NCBI GenBank assembly: GCA_020686985.1
Contig: JAJEPU010000010.1
Span: forward strand, 1-64,000
Origin: Brotaphodocola catenula
GTDB lineage: Bacteria > Bacillota > Clostridia > Lachnospirales > Lachnospiraceae
Direction of reading: 5' to 3'
DNA: 64,000 nucleotides
In this document: piece after piece, positions 26,943 to 57,273 of the stretch
Position numbering within the stretch: the stretch's first letter is position 1
Layout of the letters: each line of letters opens with the position of its first letter
Translations under genes and position numbers: made by a program
Notes under the pieces: model-generated
What the model was told of the DNA's origin: nothing
What the model saw: only the letters and a program-made list of their open reading frames with translations
Database searches by the model: none

Positions 26943-29039
26943 ATGAGTCGTGAGTACGAGGAAGACAGAAGACAGGGAGACGAGCGAAGCCGTCGCCGGA
27001 CTTCAGAGCGTCAGAGAGAGATGGAAGGACCGGTTATCATGGAGGGCGGTTCGGTGACAGTGAGTCGTTCCGGACATTCGATGCATTCTGCACGTTCTGC
27101 GCGTTCTGTGCGCAGAGTTCGCAGTGTGCAGACTTCTGGAAATTCTGTAAATTCCGGAAGCAAAGAAGCAAAGCGGTGGCGCACAGCATCCTCTTCACCG
27201 GAGTCCGGTGCGGGGAGACACCAGAGTGCACAGAGAAATGTTTCTCCAAGTAAAAATATTTCCAAGAGTGCATCTTCGAGAGGAGGCGGTGGCAATTATA
27301 ACAATGGCGGTCACGGTAATGGTGGTGGTCGCAATGGTGGCAATAATAATGGTTATAATGGCAATAACAACGGAAATAACAACCTGCCGAACCCGAGAAA
27401 AGAGATGGAGCGCGCCAAGAAGAGAAGAACGATCCGCAGAATCATCACGACAGTGATTGCGGAGTGCTTTGCGCTGTTCTTTATTTTCGGATATGGATTT
27501 TTCGCACGCACGGCGGCAAAGATTCAGCGACCGAGCGAGGAAGAGATGAAGGAAGTTACGGTCAATCAGGATCTTCCGGAGGTCGCAACCCAGAATATGA
27601 AGGGTTACTGGACAATCGCAGTCTTCGGTGTGGATGCCCGTGACAATGCGATCAAGAAGGATACGAATGCGGATGTCAACATCATTTGCAGCATCAATCT
27701 GGAAAACGGAGAGATTAAGCTCGTTTCCGTTTACCGTGACTCCTATCTGAACATCAGTCAGGAGAAGGGAAGCTACAATAAGATTAACCAGGCATATTTC
27801 CTTGGTGGACCAGCTCAGGCGATGACCGCGTTAAACCGCAACCTCGATCTGAATATTACGGACTATATCACCTTTAACTGGAAGGCAGTTGCGCAGGGAA
27901 TTGATATCCTTGGCGGTGTCGATGTGGAGCTGAGCAAGGCAGAGTTCTACTATATTAACTCTTTCATCACAGAGACCGTAAAGGCAACCGGAATCGGTTC
28001 GACTCAGCTGACCCATGCAGGAATGAATCATCTTGACGGTGTTCAGGCAGTTGCATATGGTCGTCTCCGTCTGATGGATACGGATTATGCGCGTACTGAG
28101 CGCCAGAGAAAGATTATCAGCCTTGCGTTTGAGAAGGCGCAGAAGGCAGATTTCCAGACTCTTTATCGTCTGATCGGAACCGTGTTCCCGAATACTTACA
28201 CCAGCCTTTGGGTGGATGATCTTGTAAACAATGCGAAGAACATCTCGAAGTTCCATCTCGTAGATACGACTGGATTCCCGCAGGCGCGCGGTGAGGCGAA
28301 TATGGGCAAGAAGGGATCGGTTGTTGTTCCGGCAACGCTTGAGAGCAATGTCAAACTGCTTCATGAGTTCCTCTACGATGAGACCGATTATGAGCCGTCT
28401 GAGACCGTAAAGAAGATTGGCGAGAAGATCTCTGCGAATACCGGCATCTATAAAGAGGGTCAGGTTGTCAAGAAGGTGGGAACGGACAGTGGAGTTGTTC
28501 AGCCTCAGAAGACGACGGCTTCTGCGACAACTGGATCTTCAAAGAATTCTAAGGATGAGTCTGGCACCGATGACAAGAAAGATGTAAAGGTGACTGTGGA
28601 GTCGGATGATTCATCTACCGGAAAGATTTCCGAGAGCACGAAGGCGGATGAGAAGGGGTCTAAAGACTCGAAGGATGCTCACGAGACGACATCTGCAAAG
28701 GATGTAAAGGAAACGAAGGACGCAAAGGAAACGACGAAAGAGACAACAAAAGAGGAGAAGGGAACAACAGAAATAAAGGAGACGATCGCGCCGAAGGAGA
28801 GCACGAGTGCGAGCCATGCGGGAACGTCGACGACCTCCGCTTATCGTGAGACAACTGCGTCTCATTCTACTTCCGGTGGAACATCTGAACTTCCGCCGGC
28901 ATCGACTGTACGCGGAGAGGGACCGGCTTCGTCTACGACGTCAGCGTCCAAGGAGACCACTGCACATGTGGGACCGGGAGGAACAAGTACAACGCCGACG
29001 ACTGCTGGATCTGGTCCGGTTTCAAGACCGGGGCAGTAA
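26943..29039 (+). CDS. LytR-CpsA-Psr (LCP) family glycopolymer ligase
   Basis: A 698-residue protein. The cytoplasmic N-terminus (1-160) is unusually long, Ser/Arg-rich with HSARSARSVRRVRSV-like repeats, then Gly/Asn-rich (115-150). A membrane helix lies at about 165-187. The LCP domain runs from about 222, with FGVDARD, SVYRDSY and DYARTERQRK carrying the conserved Asp and Arg residues. The C-terminal 220 residues are Thr/Ser/Lys/Glu-rich and probably disordered. LCP enzymes move undecaprenyl-linked glycan to peptidoglycan, fitting its place after the glycan genes. The 236-nt gap before it shows no clear promoter. Confidence 0.9.
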   Translation: MSREYEEDRRQGDERSRRRTSERQREMEGPVIMEGGSVTVSRSGHSMHSARSARSVRRVRSVQTSGNSVNSGSKEAKRWRTASSSPESGAGRHQSAQRNVSPSKNISKSASSRGGGGNYNNGGHGNGGGRNGGNNNGYNGNNNGNNNLPNPRKEMERAKKRRTIRRIITTVIAECFALFFIFGYGFFARTAAKIQRPSEEEMKEVTVNQDLPEVATQNMKGYWTIAVFGVDARDNAIKKDTNADVNIICSINLENGEIKLVSVYRDSYLNISQEKGSYNKINQAYFLGGPAQAMTALNRNLDLNITDYITFNWKAVAQGIDILGGVDVELSKAEFYYINSFITETVKATGIGSTQLTHAGMNHLDGVQAVAYGRLRLMDTDYARTERQRKIISLAFEKAQKADFQTLYRLIGTVFPNTYTSLWVDDLVNNAKNISKFHLVDTTGFPQARGEANMGKKGSVVVPATLESNVKLLHEFLYDETDYEPSETVKKIGEKISANTGIYKEGQVVKKVGTDSGVVQPQKTTASATTGSSKNSKDESGTDDKKDVKVTVESDDSSTGKISESTKADEKGSKDSKDAHETTSAKDVKETKDAKETTKETTKEEKGTTEIKETIAPKESTSASHAGTSTTSAYRETTASHSTSGGTSELPPASTVRGEGPASSTTSASKETTAHVGPGGTSTTPTTAGSGPVSRPGQ

Positions 29040-29124: not shown

Positions 29125-29261
29125 GGCTCCGTTCACGGGTAAAGTCATGCAAACGCGCTCTCGCTCCGGGTTCAACGTAGCGGTGCATAAGACCGTAAAA
29201 GACACGGTCTAAGCACCGACGTCTCACACGGGTTTGCATGTACTTTCCCGCTGACGGAGCC
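29125..29261 (+). repeat. 137-nt structured intergenic element, copy 1
   Basis: An outer stem joins GGCTCCG (29125-29131) to CGGAGCC (29255-29261). Inside it CGGG pairs with CCCG, then AAAGT with ACTTT, then ATGCAAAC with GTTTGCAT. A central arm contains ACGT/ACGT, CGGTGC/GCACCG and GACCGT/ACGGTC around the loop AAAAGAC. A copy of equal length and same orientation lies at 57137-57273. It starts 86 nt after the LCP gene. There is no open reading frame and no T-run, so it is not a simple terminator. The element is unclassified. Confidence 0.75.
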
Positions 29262-29440
29262 TTTTCTGCATATATATTCATTGAAAGAAAGAGACAGAAA
29301 AAAGTGTCTGTCATAGCTGTTTTTGTATACACGTTTCCCTCAACTATTTTTCTTATGTGTATGTTTCACATCTTAGATACGTTTCCATCACATTTCCGAC
29401 ACAATTAATTGTTATAGTCTTGATAGTAAAGAGAGAACAT

Positions 29441-29572
29441 TACTGTAACGGGTAGGTATTTTTTGAACTGAAAATGCCGTATGATACAGTGGTGGTAGCA
29501 GGTTTTGCCGATTTGGAATGCAAAGCATCGGCAAAATCCGTTGCTGTTTGCAGGGTGTGTGAACAGCAACGA
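29441..29572 (+). repeat. Three-hairpin intergenic repeat, copy A
   Basis: About 132 nt matching 51279-51411 on the opposite strand at close to 90 percent by eye. It folds into three consecutive hairpins: GCATTTTC-type arms around AGTTCA in the sister copy (weaker here), GATTTTGCCGAT/ATCGGCAAAATC-type arms, and GTTGCTGTT/AACAGCAAC. It lies in the 639-nt gap between the LCP and HtrA genes. It has no coding potential. Confidence 0.7.
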
Positions 29573-29678
29573 GAATATAAAAGATATTTGCGATAGAAAA
29601 TGGTTTTCTGAGACAGTGAGAGTATGGAAAACGTGATTGCGAATATCATGAGGTGATAGAGGAAAGGGGACTGGAGAA

Positions 29679-49943: not shown

Positions 49944-51280
49944 AAGGAAGATCAGAAATTATCTGGTCTTCTTTTTGGTATCACCAGTTTACAGCTTTAT
50001 AAATGGTAGACTTGTTGGTAAGCCAGCTGTTTTAACGCCTCTATCATAGCATTTGATTTTATGTGTATTTCGATATTTTTCACGAAAGTGGCAAAAAATA
50101 TCTGACTGCGAATACCCTGACTTAATTCAAAACGAAACTCCTGTACGCTTTTTGTGCGATACTCAGAAAAATGTTCGTTCTGATAGGGCAGAATCTTCAT
50201 AGCACAGTAACTGATATTAATCAGATTGACCAGCAGTTCAATTCCTTTGCAGCTCCGCACCATGTAGTTACAAAAAGACCAGAAAGTTTTTTGTTCATAG
50301 TAGCTTGTTTCAATATTCCAGCGAAACGAATACAGTAACAGTGGAAGATATTTCATCCAGTCACTGTCAGTCTGATTTCGTGGTGCTTTTTCCTGACAGG
50401 CGCAAAAAATCGGCAGATTTTCCGGGAAAACTGTACTGAAAAACAATCTTTTTGTACCATGCTGTTTTTGGGTATTAGTGACATACGCAAGGACTTCCCT
50501 GTTGCCGAAAATCCTTGTCAGAACCCGGCGGACACTGGTATAGTAATTGCCAATCGTTTCATCTGAAAAAGTAAAATCTGTTTCAACCGAAAGACGTTTT
50601 CCATGTTTGACAGGACGTCCCCGGTGACCGGTTCGTTCAGGTGTAAGATCATACATGACAGAATCAATCCTTGCATTACCGATCAGATCCAGATTTGGAT
50701 ATTCGTCAACAATAGACACCAGATTTTGTTTTGTATACCAACTGTCACAAAGAACGATGACATGTTCCTTGTTGTGAAATTCAGGCATAATCTGCCGGAT
50801 CATGGAGGCTGCCAGTTCCAGTTTGGATTCTTTTTTCTGCCACATACGATAGCCCAGAGGAACGGAAAGATAAGATACCTTATCCCCATTCCAGACGGGT
50901 ACACAGAGCATGATGCTCACAAAGCAGTGCCTATTCAGATAGTTGGAACCGTTGTGTGTGGCATGATCAAATAGTTTTGAAACATTTTCAAATTTTGTGC
51001 CAAACTTTGGTACCATCGTATCGTCAACACACAGAAATACCGGTTGTGTCTGTAAGGAATCTGGTATCAACTTTAATGCAATCCGGGCAGTGGTATTCAT
51101 AAATCTGGAATAATCAACCTTTGCATAGGAGCATGCATAATAAAATGCAGTTAATGATTTTTCCGTTATTCCGGATAAAAAATGCCCATACAGAAACCGG
51201 ATGGAATGTGCCGATTCCAATGCCAGTATGGATAGTATCAGCAGAAACAGAGTATCTGCTGTTGGAACAGAAAAAGTTGT
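49944..51280 (-). mobile_element. IS4-family insertion sequence
   Basis: The element contains one transposase gene on the minus strand and interrupts the M20 gene. The left limit is taken from where M20 similarity ends, and near it (about 49950-49975) lies a hairpin that could end transposase transcription. The right limit is taken from where the repeat at 51279 starts. I could not find convincing terminal inverted repeats or a target duplication, so both ends are approximate. Confidence 0.55.
49997..51220 (-). CDS. IS4-family DDE transposase
   Basis: About 407 residues with the DDE triad: Asp in CVDDTMVPKFG, Asp in VLCDSWYTKQN and Glu in RWNIETSYYEQK. The last segment fits the IS4 signature Y-(2)-R-(3)-E-(6)-K exactly. 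No ATG is available. A TTG at 51220 is used, but the frame stays open with family-like sequence upstream to about 51290, where an in-frame TGA occurs, without a ribosome site. The 5' end may be truncated, so activity is uncertain. Confidence 0.8.
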   Translation of the reverse strand: MESAHSIRFLYGHFLSGITEKSLTAFYYACSYAKVDYSRFMNTTARIALKLIPDSLQTQPVFLCVDDTMVPKFGTKFENVSKLFDHATHNGSNYLNRHCFVSIMLCVPVWNGDKVSYLSVPLGYRMWQKKESKLELAASMIRQIMPEFHNKEHVIVLCDSWYTKQNLVSIVDEYPNLDLIGNARIDSVMYDLTPERTGHRGRPVKHGKRLSVETDFTFSDETIGNYYTSVRRVLTRIFGNREVLAYVTNTQKQHGTKRLFFSTVFPENLPIFCACQEKAPRNQTDSDWMKYLPLLLYSFRWNIETSYYEQKTFWSFCNYMVRSCKGIELLVNLINISYCAMKILPYQNEHFSEYRTKSVQEFRFELSQGIRSQIFFATFVKNIEIHIKSNAMIEALKQLAYQQVYHL

Positions 51281-51411
51281 TACTGTTCACGCATTGCGCA
51301 AACAGCAACGGATTTTGCCGATGCTTCGCATTCCAAATCGGCAAAATCTGCTACTACCACTGTATCATACGGCATTTTCAGTTCAGAAAATGCCTACCCG
51401 TGTACAGTAAC
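51279..51411 (-). repeat. Three-hairpin intergenic repeat, copy B
   Basis: About 133 nt, the reverse complement of the repeat at 29441-29572. On the plus strand it shows GTTACTGTT/AACAGCAAC arms, GATTTTGCCGAT/ATCGGCAAAATC arms and GGCATTTTC/GAAAATGCC arms in order. It abuts the 5' side of the IS4 transposase gene. Confidence 0.7.
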
Positions 51412-52982: not shown

Positions 52983-55900
52983 ATGAAAAAGATTGATGAG
53001 GAAATACAGGCACTCTTAAAAGAGCACAAGGGAAATGTCCGGGAAATTCTCGAGCAGAATACGCGCCTGGATTATCTGTATGCGCTCTCCGGGCAGAGAG
53101 AGCTTCTGCTTGAGTGGTATGACTTTAAGTCGGACGCTTCTCTGTTGCAGGTTGGTGCGGATTACGGTGCGATGACCGGACTGTTCCGCAGAAGTGTGAG
53201 CCGGGTGACGGTTCTTGATGAGAGCAAGAAGGCGCTTGAGACCGTGCAGATGCGGTATCCGGGTGCGCCAAACATTCGCTATGAGGAGGGCACGCTCTCT
53301 GATTATGCGCAGAAGCATAAAAAAGAGGCGGAGGATGCCCAGAAATCAGAACAGAAATACGATTACATTGTGTTTGCGGGAACGCTTGAGGCTCCGTATG
53401 AGGAGCAGATTCAAACGGCGAAGTCCCTGCTTGCACCGGATGGAGTTTTGATTATTGCAGTTGCAAATACGCTCGGCATGAAGTATTTTGCCGGAAGCAG
53501 GGGGGATGAGAATGCACTTTCCAAGAAGCAGATTCTCGAGCTTCTCTATGGAACAGAAAAGACTGTGAGTATGTCCGGTCGGGCAGAGTTTTACTATCCG
53601 ATGCCGGATTACCGCACACCGGTCAGTATTTATTCCGATCAGTATCTTCCGAAAAAGGGAGATCTGACGCGAGTGACGCCAGCGTATGATTATCCGCCGT
53701 ATCACATGATGGATATGGGAGAGAAGTTTGATGAGGTCTGCGAGGCAGGTGTCTTTGACTTGTATGCAAACTCCTATCTTGTATTCTGGCAGGCGAACGC
53801 AAGCATGCAGGCAAGCGACCGCCGGATTTATATCAAGTACAATAAGACGCGCAGAGAGCAGTTCCAGATCAAGACCTGTATCTGTGAGCGACTGACTGAG
53901 CAGAGTGCACCGGCACCGTATGAGAATTTGCAGGAAGTGCAGGTTTCTGCTGGCGCAGGTACAGAGGGCGCAGAGAACGAGCAGTCGGCAAGTGCAAACT
54001 TGGCATCGTCATCGGTTCAGAATGCAGGAACTCTGGGTCACGCAAACAAAGTCTGGAAGCGCTATGTTGAGAAGTCGGCTCTGAGCCTTGACGGGGCAGA
54101 GCATATCTGGTCATTTGAGAAAAAGTATCAGGCACTGACCAATCAGCACCGTACGCTCAAGGTTGCAAAGGCATTCTGCGAGAAAAACGGAAATTCCGCG
54201 TATTTCCCGTATCTGAATGGACAGACCTGGGCGGAGAAACTCGGAGAGCAGATCCAGAACGGACAGGTTCCGGCGATGGCGCTCAAGGAGGCGATGGGGC
54301 AGATTTATGACATTGCTCCGGAGTATCGCAGTGCATTTTCAGAGACAGAGGAGTTTGACGAAGTTTTTGGAGTGGGGCTGACCGATGAGGAAAAGGGCGT
54401 TCTTGCGAGCGATACCGCCTGCAAGGTTTCCAACATCGATGCTCTGTTTGAAAATATGCTTCTCACAAAGAACGGTATTTTCTGCCTGGATTACGAGTGG
54501 GTCTTCCTGTTCCCGGTTCCGGAACATTTTGTGAAATACCGGATTCTGTACTATTTCTATGAGCAGTACCACAGCGTTCTCGGTCAGCTCGATCTCGACA
54601 GTGTGCTTGCAATGTTTGAGATCACACCGCAGATGGCGGAGATCTACCGCAAGATGGAAGAAAACTTCCAGAACTATGTGCATGGAGAAAATCAGCAACT
54701 CTATCTTGGCAACTACATGGTTTACTCCCGCGGAATCCGCGAGATCCGCCAGACCGAGAGCGATCTTGCGCGTGCGAGAGAGCGCATTGAGCAGATGAAG
54801 ATTCATAGCCGGGAGAAGGATGTGGAGATCCGCAAGATCACAGAGGTACAGCGTTTGACGAACAACCATGTGACAAACCTTGAGGCAATCATCGCAGCTC
54901 TGCGCCATGAGAACGGAGAACTCGGAAAGACGCTCAACTACCTCAACAAGCATGAGGCGATTCTGTTTAAGATCCGCCGGAAACTCGGCGACAAGTTCAA
55001 TCAGAAATATCCGAGAGGATCGGTGGAGCGCAAACGCCTTTCTTATAAGAAGGAATACCTGATGCATCCGATCCGTTCGATGAAGTTATACTCGACTCCG
55101 GAGGGACGTAATCTGCGCGATGGAGATTTCAACATCGGAGAGATCTACCGTCAGCACGGAAAGATTCACTTTGAGAAGGTCGAGAACCCGCAGGTATCGA
55201 TTGTGATTCCGGTTTACAATCAGATTCACTACACCTATGCGTGCCTGCTCTCGATTCTTGAGCACACGAAGGATGTGACGTATGAGGTGATCATCGCGGA
55301 TGATGTGTCGACCGATGCAACCTCTCGTCTCGGTGAGTTTGCGGAGGGGCTTGTGATCTGCCGAAACAGCACGAACCAGGGCTTCCTCAGAAACTGCAAC
55401 AATGCGGCGCGCCATGCCCGTGGTAAGTATGTGATGTTCCTCAACAACGACACGCAGGTGACAGAAGGGTGGCTCTCTTCGCTCGTTCAGCTGATCGAGT
55501 CTGACTCGACGATCGGAATGGTAGGATCGAAGCTCGTATACCCGGATGGACGACTTCAGGAGGCAGGTGGAATCATCTGGAGCGATGGTTCCGGCTGGAA
55601 TTACGGTCGTCTCGATAATCCGGATAAGCCGGAGTACAACTACGTCAAGGATGTCGACTATATCTCGGGAGCGGCGATTTTGCTGTCCGTTGATCTGTGG
55701 AAGCAGATCGGAGGTTTTGACACCCGATTTGCACCGGCATATTGCGAGGATTCCGATCTCGCATTTGAGGTCAGAAAAGCCGGATACCGCGTGGTTTATC
55801 AGCCACTCTCAAAAGTGATTCATTTCGAGGGCGTTTCCAACGGAACCGATGTGCAGGGAACTGGACTCAAGCGTTATCAGGTTGCAAACTCCAAGAAGCT

Positions 55901-57113
55901 TAAGGAAAAGTGGGCGGAGGAGTTTAAGAAGCAGTGTGAGAATGATGGCAATCCGGATCCGTTCCGCGCACGTGAGCGCAGTAAGGGCAAGCCGATTATT
56001 CTTGTCGTTGACCACTATGTGCCGACCTACGACAAGGATGCCGGTTCCAAGACGACGTTTGAGTATCTGAAGATGTTCATCAAGAAGGGATTTGTCGTAA
56101 AATTCCTCGGTGATAACTTCATGCATGAGGAGCCGTACACGACGACGCTTGAGCAGATGGGAATCGAAGTGCTCTACGGACCGGAGTATCAGGTGAAGAT
56201 CTGGGATTGGCTCAGAGATCACGGCGATGACATTGCAGTCGCTTATCTGAATCGTCCGCATATTGCATCGAAGTATGTCGACTACATTCTCGACAACACG
56301 GATATCAAGGTGATTTACTATGGTCATGATCTGCATTTCCTCAGAGAGAGCAGAGAGTACCAGATCACCGGAGATCCGAAGATCCGCGAGAATGCCGAAT
56401 ACTGGAAATCCGTGGAGCTGACGCTGATGAGCAAGGCAGCGGTTTCCTATTACCCGTCCTATGTGGAGCGTGATGCGATCCATGAGATCGATCCGACGAT
56501 CAATGTCAAGGACATCACAGCTTATGTCTTTGATGAGTTCAAGAGTGATATTCAGGAAGATTTTGCGAAGAGGGAAGGACTGCTCTTTGTTGGAGGTTTC
56601 GCACATCCGCCGAACGCTGATGCCGTTCTGTGGTTCGTGAAGGAGATCTATCCGCGGATTCGTGAGAAGATGCAGGCACTCGGTCAGACCCCGCCGGATT
56701 TCTATGTGGTCGGATCGAAGGTGACCGATGAAATCAAGGCGCTTGCAGAGCCGGGAAATGGCGTGATCATTAAGGGCTTTGTCTCGGAAGAAGAGCTGAG
56801 CGAGCTCTATGCGACGAGTCGAATCGTTGTGGTTCCTCTGCGGTATGGAGCAGGCGTAAAGGGTAAGGTTGTCGAGGCAATCTACAACGGAGCGCCGATC
56901 GTCACGACATCTGTCGGAGCTGAGGGAATTCCGAATGTCGAGGATGTGCTTCTCGTCGAGGATGATCCGGAGCAGTTTGCCAAGACGACGGTTCGCCTCT
57001 ACCAGAATCCGGATGATTGCCGTGCGCTCTGTGAGAAGACTCAGACCTATATCCGCCAGCATTTCAGCATGGATGCGGCGTGGAAGCGGATTGAGGATGA
57101 TTTTAAGAGATAA
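52983..57113 (+). CDS. 1376-residue multidomain glycan enzyme (methyltransferase-like, kinase-like, GT2, GT4)
   Basis: A single frame with at least four domains. Residues 50-165 form a SAM methyltransferase-like Rossmann fold (LLQVGADYGAMTGLF). Residues about 360-575 resemble an aminoglycoside/choline kinase fold (NIDALFENML, then FCLDYEW). A coiled coil spans about 589-660. A GT2 domain spans about 735-990 (SIVIPVYNQIHYTY, LNNDTQV, YCEDSDLAFEV). A GT4-type domain spans about 1003-1376 (LFVGGFAHPPNADAVLWF, ending GAGVKGKVVEA). It starts 4 nt after the ATPase gene, so the two are coupled. It probably builds and caps or modifies the exported chain that the ATPase recognises. Confidence 0.85.
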   Translation: MKKIDEEIQALLKEHKGNVREILEQNTRLDYLYALSGQRELLLEWYDFKSDASLLQVGADYGAMTGLFRRSVSRVTVLDESKKALETVQMRYPGAPNIRYEEGTLSDYAQKHKKEAEDAQKSEQKYDYIVFAGTLEAPYEEQIQTAKSLLAPDGVLIIAVANTLGMKYFAGSRGDENALSKKQILELLYGTEKTVSMSGRAEFYYPMPDYRTPVSIYSDQYLPKKGDLTRVTPAYDYPPYHMMDMGEKFDEVCEAGVFDLYANSYLVFWQANASMQASDRRIYIKYNKTRREQFQIKTCICERLTEQSAPAPYENLQEVQVSAGAGTEGAENEQSASANLASSSVQNAGTLGHANKVWKRYVEKSALSLDGAEHIWSFEKKYQALTNQHRTLKVAKAFCEKNGNSAYFPYLNGQTWAEKLGEQIQNGQVPAMALKEAMGQIYDIAPEYRSAFSETEEFDEVFGVGLTDEEKGVLASDTACKVSNIDALFENMLLTKNGIFCLDYEWVFLFPVPEHFVKYRILYYFYEQYHSVLGQLDLDSVLAMFEITPQMAEIYRKMEENFQNYVHGENQQLYLGNYMVYSRGIREIRQTESDLARARERIEQMKIHSREKDVEIRKITEVQRLTNNHVTNLEAIIAALRHENGELGKTLNYLNKHEAILFKIRRKLGDKFNQKYPRGSVERKRLSYKKEYLMHPIRSMKLYSTPEGRNLRDGDFNIGEIYRQHGKIHFEKVENPQVSIVIPVYNQIHYTYACLLSILEHTKDVTYEVIIADDVSTDATSRLGEFAEGLVICRNSTNQGFLRNCNNAARHARGKYVMFLNNDTQVTEGWLSSLVQLIESDSTIGMVGSKLVYPDGRLQEAGGIIWSDGSGWNYGRLDNPDKPEYNYVKDVDYISGAAILLSVDLWKQIGGFDTRFAPAYCEDSDLAFEVRKAGYRVVYQPLSKVIHFEGVSNGTDVQGTGLKRYQVANSKKLKEKWAEEFKKQCENDGNPDPFRARERSKGKPIILVVDHYVPTYDKDAGSKTTFEYLKMFIKKGFVVKFLGDNFMHEEPYTTTLEQMGIEVLYGPEYQVKIWDWLRDHGDDIAVAYLNRPHIASKYVDYILDNTDIKVIYYGHDLHFLRESREYQITGDPKIRENAEYWKSVELTLMSKAAVSYYPSYVERDAIHEIDPTINVKDITAYVFDEFKSDIQEDFAKREGLLFVGGFAHPPNADAVLWFVKEIYPRIREKMQALGQTPPDFYVVGSKVTDEIKALAEPGNGVIIKGFVSEEELSELYATSRIVVVPLRYGAGVKGKVVEAIYNGAPIVTTSVGAEGIPNVEDVLLVEDDPEQFAKTTVRLYQNPDDCRALCEKTQTYIRQHFSMDAAWKRIEDDFKR

Positions 57114-57136: not shown

Positions 57137-57273
57137 GGCTCCTCAGGCGGGTAAAGTCATGCAAACGCGCTTTCGCTCCGGGTTCGACGTAATGGTGCAT
57201 AAGGCTGTAAAAGACACAGCCTAAACACCAACGTCTCACACGGGTTTGCCTGCACTTTCCCGCCATCGGAGCC
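57137..57273 (+). repeat. 137-nt structured intergenic element, copy 2
   Basis: Same length and orientation as 29125-29261. GGCTCC (57137-57142) pairs with GGAGCC (57268-57273), then CGGG with CCCG, AAAGT with ACTTT and GCAAAC with GTTTGC. The central arm is TGGTG/CACCA and GGCTGT/ACAGCC around AAAAGAC. Several arm positions differ from copy 1 on both sides so that pairing is kept. It starts 24 nt after the 1376-residue gene. Confidence 0.75.

Follow-up and report, generated by a model that had tools for sequence, protein, structure and literature searches.

We report that the window, a stretch of 64,000 nucleotides from Brotaphodocola catenula, carries two copies of a dispersed, non-coding palindrome that appears to be restricted to one bacterial family, the Lachnospiraceae, in whose genomes it is widespread and for which we found no name. 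The element displays very strong covariation, and this covariation is not RNA-like. The reading that we regard as slightly on the probable side is that folded DNA is the form in which the palindrome evolves and probably works, with template switching homogenising its arms.

A preliminary description of this DNA had proposed two 137-nt elements of nested architecture, and both are present, equal in length and on the same strand (Table 1), with the stems GGCTCC/GGAGCC, CGGG/CCCG, AAAGT/ACTTT and GCAAAC/GTTTGC that it had named. In copy 1 the inverted repeat formed by 29125-29157 and 29229-29261 is 76% complementary. The RNA folds of copies 1 and 2 reach -70.7 and -67.0 kcal/mol, i.e. 8.0 and 7.4 standard deviations below shuffled sequences, with none of 200 shuffles folding as well as either copy; single-stranded DNA folding of both copies, on either strand, gives z values of -8.3 to -9.8. 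The alignment bears out the three double changes reported between the copies, namely apical A-T to G-C, apical C-G to T-A and C-G to T-A at the base of the arm, together with the loss of one neighbouring pair (C-G to C/A), and the C-G/T-A pair of the side hairpin covaries in both the own-genome and the cross-genus alignments discussed below. The observation is hence correct and more than chance. Placement shortly after genes likewise stands: copy 1 lies 85 nt past the stop codon of the ORF at 26943-29039 and copy 2 23 nt past that of the ORF at 52983-57113, the preceding genes encoding a LytR-CpsA-Psr protein and a large glycosyltransferase, respectively, with a trypsin/PDZ protease and a nucleotidyltransferase encoded nearby. 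The proposed link to surface-glycan units is unsupported, as other copies adjoin other genes, e.g. ORFs that by eye resemble urease accessory genes, and with about 50 copies in the genome the pairing of these two is coincidental. The window also contains another dispersed repeat, about 132 bp long, at 29440-29573 (+) and 51279-51410 (-), whose copies are 89-92% identical and which occurs at no fewer than 10 places in the B. catenula genome, both window copies counted; its first copy has two 10-bp inverted repeats and is located just before the trypsin/PDZ gene.

Table 1. Parts of the two palindrome copies in the window
Feature	Position	Strand	Basis
Copy 1, medium form, 137 nt	29125-29261	+	R2 covariance-model match, 118.9 bits; fold
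Left outer arm, copy 1 (GGCTCC..CGGG..AAAGT..GCAAAC)	29125-29154	+	fold
Side hairpin of three-way junction, copy 1 (GCGCTCTCGCTCC)	29155-29167	+	consensus of A4; conserved across genera
Inner arm, copy 1: ACGTAGCGGTGCATAAG, apical hairpin, CTAAGCACCGACGT	29175-29222	+	conserved AG bulge, A-rich loop
Right outer arm, copy 1	29231-29261	+	fold, inverted repeat
Copy 2, medium form, 137 nt	57137-57273	+	R2 match, 120.7 bits; fold
Side hairpin, copy 2	57167-57179	+	fold, A4 consensus
Inner arm, copy 2	57187-57234	+	carries two apical double changes and one at arm base

The B. catenula genome (3.32 Mb in 112 contigs) yielded 43 BLAST pieces and 50 covariance-model matches, scattered across many contigs with no single array. 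Allowing up to 3 mismatches, the left core pattern was found at 53 places and the right core pattern at 40, while the reversed patterns were found at none. The element is modular: its copies fall into a short form (about 75 nt), the medium form (137 nt) found in the window, and a long form with an extra GC-rich hairpin, and copy L049 possesses the extra hairpin while the inner arm is absent. Judged by their sequences, the medium form resembles a short form into which an arm bounded by repeated CGGGTT has been inserted, and the short form L050 is interpretable as the product of a deletion between repeated TCTCAC motifs. The left half is found in tandem beside full copies in genome G019 and as short end repeats in B. 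catenula (L051, L012). In [Clostridium] symbiosum (L106, about 2009-2173) a copy has an additional AT-rich hairpin inserted into the apical loop, and in G023 (G023:C44 21500-25600, L091) the locus at about 1553-2350 contains a close series of hairpins in alternating orientation. Several G023 contigs end inside or beside the element, which probably breaks assemblies.

The covariance-model search proposed in the preliminary description uncovered many further copies, with all carriers falling in the same family. Model R1 matched 18 of 61 genomes, including B. catenula itself, and in a family-wide sample 122 of 397 genomes, with 108 of 334 genera carrying the element; the broader model R2, run on a class-wide sample of 391 genomes that includes at least 16 members of this family, matched 11, again including B. 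catenula. A core pattern search of named genome contigs gave six places, three in contigs of Lachnospiraceae metagenome-assembled genomes and three in [Clostridium] symbiosum, and an exact pattern from the B. catenula copies gave none in the same collection, which may omit B. catenula itself. In the genomes inspected the arm sequences are genome-specific, suggesting that copies multiply or turn over within lineages. As to viruses, a short core pattern occurs in eight viral contigs, none of which has the element's right half; seven of these stretches are similar and look like one phage group, and the full core pattern was found in no viral contig. No known class could be assigned, in agreement with the preliminary description: at the gathering score Rfam gave no match in the 64,000-nt window or in 18 loci with copies and only tRNAs in seven G006 loci, the best sub-threshold match at copy 1 scored 15.8 bits against a required 35, and relaxed thresholds produced nothing credible. 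Comparison of copy 1 with plasmids, phages and E. coli gave no match, and no such element appeared among the papers listed by literature searches aimed at the Lachnospiraceae, whose coverage mostly excluded subscription papers.

To characterize the fold across genera we used A4, an alignment of 58 cross-genus copies fitted to model R1, in which 93.3% of cells are paired; sliding the partners lowers this to 32.5-42.2%. Double changes occur in 35 of 38 pairs, and the 683 double-change cells compare with 196 in shuffles, so that the covariation called for as a test in the preliminary description is far above chance. The own-genome alignment A2, comprising 36 of the approximately 50 B. catenula copies and the full medium form only, shows double changes in 28 of 38 pairs. 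The consensus of the core in A4 reads GAC-CGCTCTCGCTC ... ACGTAGCGGTRC(A)TAAG - hairpin - CTAAGTRCCGACGT ... GGGTC. This core of about 90 nt forms a three-way junction with a small side hairpin, an ACGT/ACGT stem with an AG bulge and an apical hairpin with an A-rich loop; outside it, several relatives have long, near-perfectly paired outer arms of unrelated sequence. Such a stable and covarying fold, with invariant unpaired bases in its core, is what favours a structured RNA, i.e. a 3' UTR element, processing site or small RNA under selection on RNA base pairing. Conserved bases outside the pairs are as compatible with an RNA as with recognition of DNA.

On the transcribed strand an RNA helix can accommodate G-U but not A-C. 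This wobble tolerance, expected of a functional structured RNA, is not seen here: in the count that keeps all pairs, G-T and A-C cells stand at 36:35 across genera (58 copies) and 16:31 in the own genome (36 copies), and in the filtered count, which omits pairs that are less than 85% Watson-Crick, at 13:23 and 8:15. When the arms of 146 copies were aligned with no strand preference, they contained 87 G-T and 126 A-C mismatches (p 0.009), beside 399 other mismatches and 183 gaps; this slightly favours the complementary strand and is far from the ratio seen in RNA. By comparison, 16 tRNAs gave a GU:AC ratio of 19:0, helped by the preference of ARAGORN for wobble over mismatch, and 30 SAM riboswitches of related genomes, 19 from the same family and 11 from other families of the order with none from B. 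catenula itself, gave 30:1, with 19 of the 30 coming from one conserved U-G pair. The ratios of the element and of the SAM riboswitches differ with p 1e-8 and 3e-6. Against a non-RNA reading, 11 of the 58 copies have T-G at one core pair, and template switching could itself erase wobble pairs, in which case their scarcity would be compatible with an RNA role.

The tempo of stem change also sets the element apart from the riboswitches. Minimum spanning trees of the inner stems of the B. catenula copies have 102 double Watson-Crick changes versus 31 single ones, and 129 versus 84 when all pairs including the outer stems are counted, while the tree of the SAM riboswitches has 12 double versus 41 single changes. 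Among 13 of the 14 G023 copies (one being excluded for its length), separated by only 1-5 substitutions per edge, there are six double and seven single stem changes, none of them to G-T. In one copy of the same genome, L089, an arm segment is the exact reverse complement of the partner arm at a place where the other aligned copies are mismatched; this is most simply read from the alignment as a quasipalindrome correction from arm to arm, with the direction of change unproven. Template switching has been described as a source of compensatory changes in RNA genes (PMC8794818).

Orthologous loci in two species pairs provide a second view of this process, in regions that in all four genomes were mostly chosen around known copies, so that shared copies are favoured. 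G019 and G006 are 86-90% identical over matched stretches, with 7 of 21 G019 regions found in the G006 DNA examined, one of them cut by a contig end. Four loci have the element in both species and in the same orientation. At three of them the element is 95.0-96.9% identical versus 82-90% outside it; at the fourth it is 79.7% identical versus 88.4% outside, its arms differing by a cluster of mostly compensated changes, with arm scores of 28.0 and 26.0 within species and 18.0 when crossed. Of the six elements that could be assessed, one has been inverted at its site and one is without its right half in G006; a site in G006 that had been taken for empty proved to hold a half-deleted copy. G253 and G617 are 84-97% identical depending on the stretch, with a G617 counterpart for 7 of the 9 G253 copies in the regions examined and the element in both species at all seven comparable loci. 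Four of these loci are 91-97% identical including 25-nt flanks. At the other three the element is 66-73% identical with a nearly unchanged core, the 5' flank being 90-98% and the 3' flank 45-64% identical. At two of these three loci arm pairing scores within the two species are 19.5 and 22.5, and 21.0 and 24.0, versus 11.0 and 9.5, and 9.5 and 7.0, when the arms are crossed between species, the shuffled maxima being 12.0-13.0. Given that the arms pair within and not between species, both arms at these two loci have been rewritten together. At the third rewritten locus (L278/L287) the G253 arms score 32.0 and the G617 arms 10.0, the latter not above shuffles. Across 11 ortholog pairs, whose structures were predicted with 25-nt flanks from a single species and therefore take in weak outer pairs, the base pairs comprise 602 without change, 24 changed on both sides to Watson-Crick, 9 changed on both sides to non-Watson-Crick, 63 changed on one side and 22 with gaps; among single-sided changes GT-type number 22 and AC-type 14 (p 0.24). 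This preponderance of single-sided over double Watson-Crick changes, and of GT-type over AC-type among the former, counts against the folded-DNA reading.

Genomic placement was scored with a greedy longest-ORF caller, using copies that a regular expression detected and that were flanked by an ORF on each side (33 of the approximately 50 in B. catenula). At co-directional sites in this genome 16 copies are in sense and four in antisense (p 0.012), a bias that an RNA would predict and that had suggested a role in the sense strand of 3' UTRs; the other genomes, with 23 sense and 31 antisense copies, do not bear this out. Convergent sites outnumber divergent ones 36:12 when the G023 composites are set aside. 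An insertion preference for the lagging strand was rejected, as in G224 23 copies run with the leading strand as assigned by GC skew and 15 against it, which is no significant bias, with three in an interval lacking an assigned direction. The GC skew of 20 sampled stretches of the contig concerned (G224:C1, L258-L277) changes sign four times along its circuit, a pattern suggestive of large inversions or of misassembly. Taken together, the placement agrees more closely with a DNA element tolerated between genes than with a 3' UTR element acting in sense or a transposon that targets the lagging strand.

Of the two options offered by the preliminary description, the hairpin-type mobile repeat is supported as far as its dispersal goes, by the dozens of copies, the genome-specific arms and the lack of an Rfam match, with mobility itself not directly seen, and the structured RNA is weakened by the absence of a wobble excess on either strand and of a gene-orientation preference outside the own genome. 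The persistence of the core at orthologous loci speaks for an RNA and the element inverted in place speaks against it. On balance we consider selection on RNA base pairing unlikely.

Another explanation is that the element is a MITE, i.e. a non-autonomous insertion-sequence derivative with the hairpin as its body, as the dozens of similar copies per genome might suggest. In G023 many copies lie, with a second inverted hairpin, inside a repeat mostly of about 460 bp with ends like ATACCTTWTCGTGC, and in G224 some copies lie in 198-208-bp units ending in AGGGGCTGTAAA. Against this, other G224 copies lie outside such units, the ends differ between the two genomes though the core is the same, and in the other genomes compared common terminal repeats were not seen, the shared unit being the hairpin plus roughly 12-40 nt. 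Further, by eye no target duplication was recognised at the copies inspected, no full-length parent was found in the DNA examined, and no empty site was found among the G019/G006 and G253/G617 loci compared, a set favouring shared copies. We hence regard this origin as quite unlikely; the occurrence of the same core within unrelated ends argues that the core persists for reasons of its own. At the G023 loci L088, L136 and L090 another repeat, which resembles CCCTTCGGGCGGGCGTGCTCCGTCA in sequence, directly adjoins the ~460-bp unit at its ends. Convergent copy pairs were also considered as the two ends of one transposon and rejected, as three such pairs in B. catenula enclose ordinary-looking genes.

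That the element terminates transcription, or has inserted into the stems of terminators, would accord with its frequent position after stop codons and its preference for convergent gene ends, and is very improbable in light of the lack of a consistent T-run past the stem (by eye), the presence of separate terminator-like hairpins with T-runs upstream of some copies (L043, L083) and the location of the conserved core inside the arms. The GTAG foot is a motif of REP-type elements, which are several times shorter than this element. Mobilisation as a REP-type element, by a Y1 HUH transposase (RAYT) that acts on hairpins in single-stranded DNA, is hardly credible even though convergent pairs resemble REP doublets and relatives have a GTAG-like foot on their complementary strand, since the transposase does not track the element, 6 of 18 carriers (G004, G005, G014, G018, G025 and G034, with 1-22 copies and in some cases incomplete assemblies) having no Y1 hit at E 1e-5, and since G224 has no significant replication-strand bias.

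Several known systems invite comparison. Integron attC sites, which have terminal RYYYAAC/GTTRRRY boxes and an integrase, were considered, but the B. catenula copies do not lie in one array. BOX elements have a modular structure. The BOX elements of pneumococcus (PMC3049150) resemble the present element in this modularity, some forms here having an inserted hairpin module and others lacking it; the hosts differ, and the comparison concerns structure. The ERIC/IRU elements of enterobacteria (127 bp; PMC2759123) are likewise intergenic, dispersed, imperfect palindromes of similar length, but are unrelated in sequence, copy 1 having no match among 20,395 E. coli records in a distant-mode search at E 0.01, and differ from the present element with its three-way junction core and its arms that can change between orthologous loci. 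REP, BIME and REPIN sequences (PMC3116915, PMC8266576) are also dispersed hairpins with inverted doublets, whereas the element described here is much longer, has a central core with the variable arms outside it and is not tied to Y1 transposases. Similar in process are the hairpins maintained by template switching (PMC8794818), which likewise acquire multi-base compensatory changes in one event; those are RNA genes, whereas the present case is a dispersed repeat that can be compared against RNA controls.

Returning to the folded-DNA reading, the element would act while folded into a hairpin or cruciform, when the DNA is single-stranded or replicating. During replication the polymerase may switch template between the arms, writing both sides of a pair at once, and such switching would largely keep the arms complementary while allowing their sequence to change fast. 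The core would be kept by selection, probably as the putative binding site of a family-specific protein or of an enzyme that spreads the element; some protein probably reads the folded junction. A more general proposal, which we put forward only tentatively, is that there is a class of folded-DNA sites in which a junction core, single-stranded or cruciform, is read by a family-specific protein and the arms are repeatedly rewritten by template switching, remaining complementary while turning over faster than the adjoining 5' flank. Compensatory base changes are the main evidence for claiming a functional RNA. If this proposal is true, these sites would be a natural case of textbook covariation made at the DNA level and misleading RNA discovery. 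The hundreds of copies in the Lachnospiraceae, with their covariation minus the wobble signature, offer a test set for telling DNA-made covariation from selection on RNA.
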